Shown: positions 2,084-3,915 of the stretch, one piece after another | How the letters are laid out: each line of letters starts with the position of its first letter | Numbering within the stretch: the first letter of the stretch is position 1 | Source: Anaerolineales bacterium | GTDB lineage: Bacteria; Chloroflexota; Anaerolineae; Anaerolineales; Villigracilaceae | DNA: 64,000 nt | Reading direction: 5' to 3' | NCBI GenBank assembly: GCA_016789025.1 | Contig: JAEURC010000025.1 | Location: forward strand, 1 to 64,000 | Position numbers and translations under genes: made by a program | Notes under the pieces: generated by a model | What the model saw: the letters and a program-made list of their open reading frames with translations, nothing else | Told to the model about the DNA's origin: nothing | Databases searched by the model: none

Positions 2084-2692
2084 TTATTTTTTCTCGCTCA
2101 ATATCTTCGTTAGCGCGTCCTTGAACGCTTCATACGGCTGAGCGCCGACGATCGCGTAGCGGTCGTTGATCACATACGTCGGCACGCCCGTCACGCCGAT
2201 CTGATACGCCCACCTCACTTTATCTGCTACGTCTGCCGTGTATTTTTCGCTTTCCACGTCGCGTTGCATTTCGTCCGCGTTCAAGCCCGCTTCTTCCGCC
2301 GCCGAGCGAAGCGTATCCCATTGACTTGGGTCGTATCCCTCCGCGTAGACTTTGCGGAAGATGATTTTGTGAAATTCATTTCCCTTGCCATGTTCGCGCG
2401 CGTACTCGGTCGCTTCGTGCGCGAGGCGCGTGTTGTACACTCGATCCGTCGAGCGGAAGGGCATCCCATACATCCCAGCGATGGAGGCCAGCCGTTCCTC
2501 CGAACCGTTGGCGCGGGCGCGTTTTATGTGTTCGGATAGATCGCGTCCCTCAGGCGGCGTATCGAAATACAAATAGAACGGACGCCACTCCACGTCCACT
2601 TGATATTCTTCTTTCAACCTCTCGACCACACCCTGGCCGACATAACACCACGGTCAGATATAATCAGAGAAGATGGTCAGTTTGAAATCCAT
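2084..2692 (-). CDS. DsbA/FrnE-family oxidoreductase, probable selenoprotein (UxxC active site)
   Basis: The ATG at 2692-2690 is preceded by AAAAGGACAAC, a good Shine-Dalgarno site, and reads MDFKLTIFSDYI, then UGA, then PWCYVGQGVVERL. Family members have CPWC here, so the UGA (2654-2656) replaces exactly the first catalytic cysteine. The frame then continues uninterrupted for 189 residues through a typical FrnE/2-hydroxychromene-isomerase-like thioredoxin fold. It includes the cis-proline region GVTGVPTYVINDRYAIVGAQ and a normal C-terminus. A stem-loop of bacterial SECIS type follows the UGA. The full product would be 202 residues with Sec at position 13. Starting downstream at codon 22 (GTG) would remove the active site. 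The selA, selB and selC genes are not in the window. The alternative is a point mutation or sequencing error of TGC to TGA. Confidence 0.82.
2622..2640 (-). promoter_or_regulatory. Candidate bacterial SECIS hairpin
   Basis: Read on the minus strand, UCGGCC pairs with GGUCGA (6 bp, one G-U) around the 7-nt loop AGGGUGU. The stem begins at the 14th base after the UGA at 2654-2656, and guanines sit at the second to fourth loop positions. This is the spacing and loop style of the E. coli fdhF element. It lies wholly inside the coding sequence, as bacterial SECIS elements do. Pairing was done by eye. Confidence 0.65.
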
Positions 2693-2898
2693 GTTGTCCT
2701 TTTGTATAAAACCATACAGGATAGACAAGATTCTCTCCTTGTATCTTACTCTCAAAGATTCTTTATGACAAAACCGCGTTATCAGCGGCAGAAGACTTCG
2801 AATTGCGAACTGCGTCAGGGTCGCGAAGGTTTGATGCCTTAAGAGATCAAGGTTTCCCTTTGTGTTCTTCGTGCCCTTTGTGGTAAAAAGGTTTACCC

Positions 2899-3915
2899 AT
2901 GAAAAACTTCGACCCAAAATACAACTCCATCCCCAAGACCGAAATCCACATCCACCTCGAAGGCGCGATCCGCACGCAGACGATCATTGACATTGCGCGA
3001 GAATACAAGTTGCAACTTCCATCGTATCAAGCGGACGAGCTGGAGAAGCACGTCAAAGTCTACGATCAACTACGCGACTTGGAAACCGTGCTGAAGGCGT
3101 TCGGAATTTTTCAAAACAGCATCACCTCCCCAAAAGCCGTCGAGCGGATCGCGTGGGAGTTGTTCGAAGATTCCGCCAAGCAAAATATCAAACTGTTTGA
3201 AGTGCGCTTCTCTCCCGACTGGGCGTTCAGCGGACACAACGTGGATTGGGATGCCTGCCTCGAAGGTCTGCTCCGCGCCAAAGCCCGCGCCGAAAAAGAA
3301 TTCAACATGGCGATCTGCTACATCGCCATCACCTCGCGAAGTTTGGGACCCGCGTCCTGCGTCAAAACCGTGGACTGGGTGATTCGGCATAAGGAGCATA
3401 TCCCCGCCATTGACCTCGCCGACAGCGAACGCGATTTTCCACTGCGCGAGTTCGTCCCCTCGATCATGAAAGCCAAAGAGGCGGGCTTGAAGGTCACCAT
3501 CCACACCGGCGAGGATACGCCCGCATCTTTCGTGAAAGAGACGATTGAACTTGCCAGCCCCGACCGCATCGGACATGGAATCCACGCGATTGAGGATATG
3601 GCGGTTGTGAATCTTATCAAAGGGCGCGGCATCACGCTCGAGGTCAACCCGTGGAGCAACTACCTCACCAATTCCGTCCGCGCGATCGAAGAGCATCCGC
3701 TGAAAAAACTATTCGACCTCGGCGTGAAAGTGACGATCAACTCTGACGACCCCGAAGTGTTGGAGACAAACCTCAACAACGAATATCGCATCGCGCATGA
3801 CGTTCTCGGCATGAGCATGGACGAGATCGCCGTTTGTAATCACAATGCCTATGAAGCGTCGTTCATCCCCGAATCGGAGAAGAACAGAGTTTGGGAAAGG
3901 TATTTTCAAACGTGA
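2899..3915 (+). CDS. add: Adenosine deaminase family protein
   Basis: Zinc-dependent amidohydrolase of 338 residues that deaminates adenosine or a related purine to the inosine form in the cytoplasm. The first metal ligands lie in the N-terminal motif EIHIHLEGAIR. The third ligand and catalytic region read VTIHTGED, followed by SPDRIGHGIHA, and the last metal ligand is in VTINSDDPEV. Length and motif order fit Add. Adenine deaminase and aminodeoxyfutalosine deaminase share this scaffold and cannot be excluded. The gene stands alone, upstream of a NUDIX hydrolase, with a repeat between the two. Confidence 0.85.
   Translation: MKNFDPKYNSIPKTEIHIHLEGAIRTQTIIDIAREYKLQLPSYQADELEKHVKVYDQLRDLETVLKAFGIFQNSITSPKAVERIAWELFEDSAKQNIKLFEVRFSPDWAFSGHNVDWDACLEGLLRAKARAEKEFNMAICYIAITSRSLGPASCVKTVDWVIRHKEHIPAIDLADSERDFPLREFVPSIMKAKEAGLKVTIHTGEDTPASFVKETIELASPDRIGHGIHAIEDMAVVNLIKGRGITLEVNPWSNYLTNSVRAIEEHPLKKLFDLGVKVTINSDDPEVLETNLNNEYRIAHDVLGMSMDEIAVCNHNAYEASFIPESEKNRVWERYFQT

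Follow-up and report, generated by a model that had tools for sequence, protein, structure and literature searches.

A predicted selenocysteine at the active site of an FrnE/DsbA-type protein in an Anaerolineales bacterium

In a 64,000-nucleotide stretch of Anaerolineales DNA (the window), a gene for a DsbA-type protein carries an in-frame UGA where the first cysteine of a CPWC redox motif is expected. Does this UGA specify selenocysteine (Sec), does it end translation, is it read as another amino acid, or is it an error in the sequence? A first-pass annotation of the window had proposed a selenoprotein, and this proposal is supported by the Sec machinery of the genome, by the orthologues that share the UGA and by a hairpin that is constrained at synonymous sites only where the UGA is present.

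The gene and its protein family

The features of the locus are as follows.

2084..2692, minus strand: predicted FrnE/DsbA-type selenoprotein gene, 202 aa, UPWC active site, TAA at 2086-2084
2697..2703, minus strand: Shine-Dalgarno-like AAAAGGA, 5' of the ATG at 2692, read from the sequence
2654..2656, minus strand: TGA in frame as codon 13, aligned with the first Cys of CPWC and predicted to encode selenocysteine
2645..2647, minus strand: TGT, Cys16, predicted resolving thiol of UPWC and the only Cys codon in the gene
2622..2640, minus strand: predicted SECIS hairpin of the bacterial type, with a UCGGCC(A)/(U)GGUCGA stem and a GGGUG loop, 20 nt past the UGA

The gene starts with ATG at 2692-2690 on the minus strand and has 202 codons. 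Twelve normal codons (MDFKLTIFSDYI) precede the TGA at 2656-2654, and the frame then continues as PWCYVGQGVVE... (PWCYVGQGVVERLKEEY...) through to the TAA. This arrangement, with a ribosome-binding site before the ATG, had been described in the first-pass annotation and was confirmed. GGA-containing leaders are also found before many orthologues of the gene. The translated protein contains U13 and C16 only, with no further Cys past the active site. The warning that standard gene calling would truncate the gene at codon 22 and lose the active site was also justified: the mechanical open reading frame begins only at codon 22 (GTG 2629) and excludes the active site, and ordinary gene calling would place the start too late. 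Automatic annotation probably misses the protein, since its score stays below the cut-off of every NCBIfam model.

Sequence and predicted structure both support the assignment to the FrnE/DsbA family. The translated protein has a DSBA domain (PF01323, 137 bits), and its best match by sequence in the PDB is Deinococcus radiodurans FrnE (E 4e-26). The AlphaFold2 model (pLDDT 95.5) likewise has D. radiodurans FrnE as its best structure match (5xwh, E 4.5e-16, TM 0.85). P171, the conserved proline before the second half, is invariant, and it is found together with the CP(W/F)C-type motif and the FrnE-like fold that define the subfamily. COG2761 corresponds to the FrnE group. Alignment of homologues at the CPWC site placed the UGA at the catalytic Cys, which is present at this position in relatives from Leptolinea, Dehalococcoidia, Desulfobulbaceae, Gemmatimonadaceae and others. 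Nearly all named relatives with 75-94% identity are MAGs from Anaerolineales or Anaerolineae (e.g. UTCFX1).

Selenocysteine machinery and the UGA across orthologues

We surveyed 152 genomes of the host's family, mostly drafts, and examined 64 Sec and five Cys orthologues. Codon 13 was TGA in the 64 family orthologues (57-100% identity, the window's included) and TGC in the five, and six more Sec forms were found in other Anaerolineae families.

A UPWC FrnE-type enzyme would imply an organism that decodes Sec, and the first-pass annotation had called for a search of the rest of the genome for selA, selB, selD and selC. All were found in the window's own genome (3.41 Mb, 96% complete). Profile searches detected selB (364 bits versus a cut-off of 242), selA (543 versus 268) and selD (353 versus 125), and selC was identified as a tRNA-Sec with 66.6 bits by the Rfam model, in agreement with ARAGORN, and with the anticodon UCA. 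Like the window gene, selD (L022, G000:C54:17608-18540) contains a TGA in frame, close to the N terminus of its product and within STCAG-U-ASK, a site of SelD at which Sec is known. A second match to the SelB profile (L006, G000:C23:40-915) scored 189 bits, below the selB cut-off, and its 399-aa open frame suggests an ordinary elongation factor Tu. Among the genomes with a Sec form, selA was not found in the draft G108.

It is possible in principle that a suppressor tRNA reads the UGA as Cys (or Trp), so that the enzyme is a CPWC protein, and no observation here supports it. Against this stand the full Sec machinery with its canonical UCA tRNA-Sec and a hairpin frozen in the SECIS range, which is expected only under SelB decoding. 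Moreover, 17 of the Sec-form genes terminate in TGA themselves, which shows that TGA has not become a sense codon in general; a gene in which UGA stands for Sec at one place and for stop at another fits Sec decoding, not general reassignment. We consider a suppressor tRNA very unlikely.

A protein tree was built with the UGA column masked and with Cys outgroups. This quick tree required five Sec/Cys changes, and it reads as one Cys-to-Sec gain followed by about four Sec-to-Cys reversions nested among the Sec forms; the direction of change at its base is suggested rather than fixed, because the outgroup branches are long. An example of an apparent reversion is the Cys form L053, which lies beside the Sec form L049. 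Since selA is still present in four of the five Cys-form genomes (the fifth is 53% complete), reversion was not forced by the loss of Sec decoding.

The hairpin downstream of the UGA

The 6-bp stem with loop AGGGUGU reported in the first pass is present 14 nt past the UGA, with arms UCGGCC (2640-2635) and GGUCGA (2627-2622). When the A-U closing pair is counted, the stem becomes 7 bp and the loop GGGUG, 20 nt past the UGA. According to a review (PMC13188914), the bacterial SECIS model has a loop of 3-9 nt with G in the first two positions and a stem of 4-16 bp, at 16-37 nt from the UGA. The window hairpin satisfies these published rules and is also under selection. However, the rules are loose: they admit 397 of the 2454 TGAs in the window (16%) and 47% of the sequences obtained by recoding the same peptide synonymously, so a hairpin in one sequence is not proof. 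Of these recoded sequences, 2.3% fold at least as stably as the hairpin, and no RNA family in Rfam matches the region. The first-pass description of the hairpin as SECIS-like thus stands as far as the published rules go, but the hairpin is not significant alone, and its weight comes from conservation.

Among the Sec forms, synonymous diversity falls to its minimum for the gene at codons 17-22 (0.06, compared with 0.52 on average over conserved codons past codon 30); past codon 30, the lowest value at a fourfold-degenerate codon is 0.25. The pS value is 0.14 for codons 17-24 versus 0.66-0.71 outside. Synonymous sites of the Sec forms deviate from the Sec consensus at 21 of 447 positions in the hairpin and at 3079 of 8033 elsewhere. 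In the five Cys orthologues the corresponding counts are 19 of 32 and 304 of 595, showing that the hairpin constraint is gone. Each pair of the six-base stem holds in 55 to 63 of the 63 distinct Sec sequences. On these sequence comparisons, we take conservation, with constraint only where the UGA is present, as the decisive evidence for the predicted SECIS hairpin.

The stem hardly varies, and the hairpin accordingly shows little covariation: there is one compensatory pair, a change from C-G to U-A in L081, and 37 of 500 shuffles scored as high, which is too little to count alone. RNAalifold arrives at a different consensus structure, in which the last base of the UGA is paired, and an explicit covariation count was strong in neither structure. 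We set this alternative pairing aside, as the divergent L161 and L166, both Sec forms, do not preserve it and its 5' arm would be too near the UGA to be free with the ribosome there. The covariance model R1, which had the window site as its only match, carries the RNAalifold structure and is therefore uninformative on the SECIS hairpin.

The UGA could instead be a real stop, with a non-functional upstream peptide and a protein that starts at GTG 2629 without the active site. The mechanical open reading frame begins there, and the GTG at codon 22 is invariant in the family's Sec forms. However, the more distant Anaerolineae Sec forms L161 (loop AGGCCAG) and L166 (loop AGGUGCG) have changed loop codons, with AGG and CGG, respectively, at codon 22, yet they keep the UGA and the stem. 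The Cys forms read straight through. Furthermore, pN/pS is 0.08 for codons 3-12, 0.01 for codons 14 and 16 and 0.29 for codons 25-198, and such purifying selection on each side of the UGA indicates that the frame is coding on both sides. A real stop is therefore extremely improbable. A sequencing or assembly error that hides a true TGC or TGT, and thus an ordinary CPWC FrnE, has a negligible chance of being correct: although a minority of orthologues have TGC at codon 13, the TGA recurs in mostly separately assembled genomes of the family and in other Anaerolineae families, and the hairpin constraint tracks it.

Proposed mechanism, related groups and known systems

We hold with high confidence that SelB-dependent insertion of Sec at UGA13 would yield a probably cytoplasmic UPWC FrnE-type thiol-disulfide oxidoreductase; judged from the sequence, this Anaerolineales bacterium very probably inserts Sec there. 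SelD would provide selenophosphate, and SelA would convert Ser-tRNA-Sec into Sec-tRNA-Sec. At UGA13, the hairpin at 2640-2622 would be bound by SelB carrying Sec-tRNA-Sec, resulting in Sec rather than termination. Sec13, as a selenolate, may then attack a substrate disulfide or an oxidised thiol, Cys16 would resolve the mixed selenylsulfide, and the net outcome could be disulfide reduction or isomerisation in the cytoplasm. The cytoplasmic location is probable, as no signal peptide is visible and as is known for the FrnE family. By analogy with D. radiodurans FrnE (PMC8945050), the protein probably has a role in protection against oxidative or metal stress. Nearly all of the close relatives checked have a divergent adenosine deaminase gene upstream, and several have a glycosyltransferase gene downstream; the neighbours include no redox partner and give no functional clue.

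Three other DsbA-like groups in Anaerolineae have TGA at the first Cys. The second group is a DsbA-domain paralogue of about 230 aa (AEYY-U-PWCYVAAVRLQKIAPEY) with no NCBIfam match; it has TGA in ten genomes (L134-L143) and TGC in the window's own genome (L144, G000:C76:52559-53665) and three others. The third (SSSLEKL) group comprises L167, L168, L170 and L172-L176 from other Anaerolineae families (e.g. SDFV-U-PWCFLVSSSLE); in many of them the hairpin after the TGA is a different one, around CUCCAGUUUGGAG. The fourth comprises L092 and L148 (HDTV-U-PFCRIGK). We see about an even chance that the DsbA/FrnE superfamily has a hotspot of Sec use in Anaerolineae, where at least four groups (the window's, AEYY-UPWC, SSSLEKL and HDTV-UPFC) would have acquired Sec independently, each together with a SECIS element of its own, with repeated Sec-to-Cys reversions and then SECIS decay.

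Among the closest known systems, D. radiodurans FrnE (DR_0659; PDB 5cnw, 5xwh) is the best match in both sequence and structure, and its CPWC motif aligns with UPWC, but it has Cys where the window protein has Sec. Its C-terminal CX4C, proposed to regenerate the active site, has no counterpart in the 202-aa window protein; CX4C is an optional motif of the subfamily, occurring in many but not all FrnE proteins (PMC8945050). The Rcas_1661 family thioredoxin-like (seleno)lipoprotein NF041057 (DsbG-like) is likewise a thioredoxin-fold (seleno)protein with UxxC; however, it is a lipoprotein family, and membership was ruled out, as the window protein scored far below its cut-off (42 versus 190 bits).

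As the first-pass annotation had stated, Sec-containing DsbA-like proteins are known from selenoproteome surveys. A DsbA-like UxxC selenoprotein of COG2761 was described in the Sargasso Sea selenoproteome in 2005 (PMC1088965), and a 2026 review lists a 'DsbA-like protein form 1' with PF01323 and UxxC (PMC13188914); the accessible parts of these two sources make no mention of Chloroflexota members. The named example of the family is NIP15863.1. We found no paper in the literature naming FrnE selenoproteins in Chloroflexota. The window protein resembles this family in its PF01323 domain, in a UxxC motif whose Sec replaces the first Cys and in a downstream bacterial SECIS element, while the 2005 members are marine metagenome sequences. 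The window protein is thus a well-supported added member of an already known selenoprotein family, and it provides a clean multi-genome case of a selenoprotein that is easily mis-called in an uncultured lineage. Sister Sec and Cys orthologues such as L049 and L053 offer a natural experiment on what Sec adds to a DsbA-type enzyme and on how SECIS elements decay after reversion.
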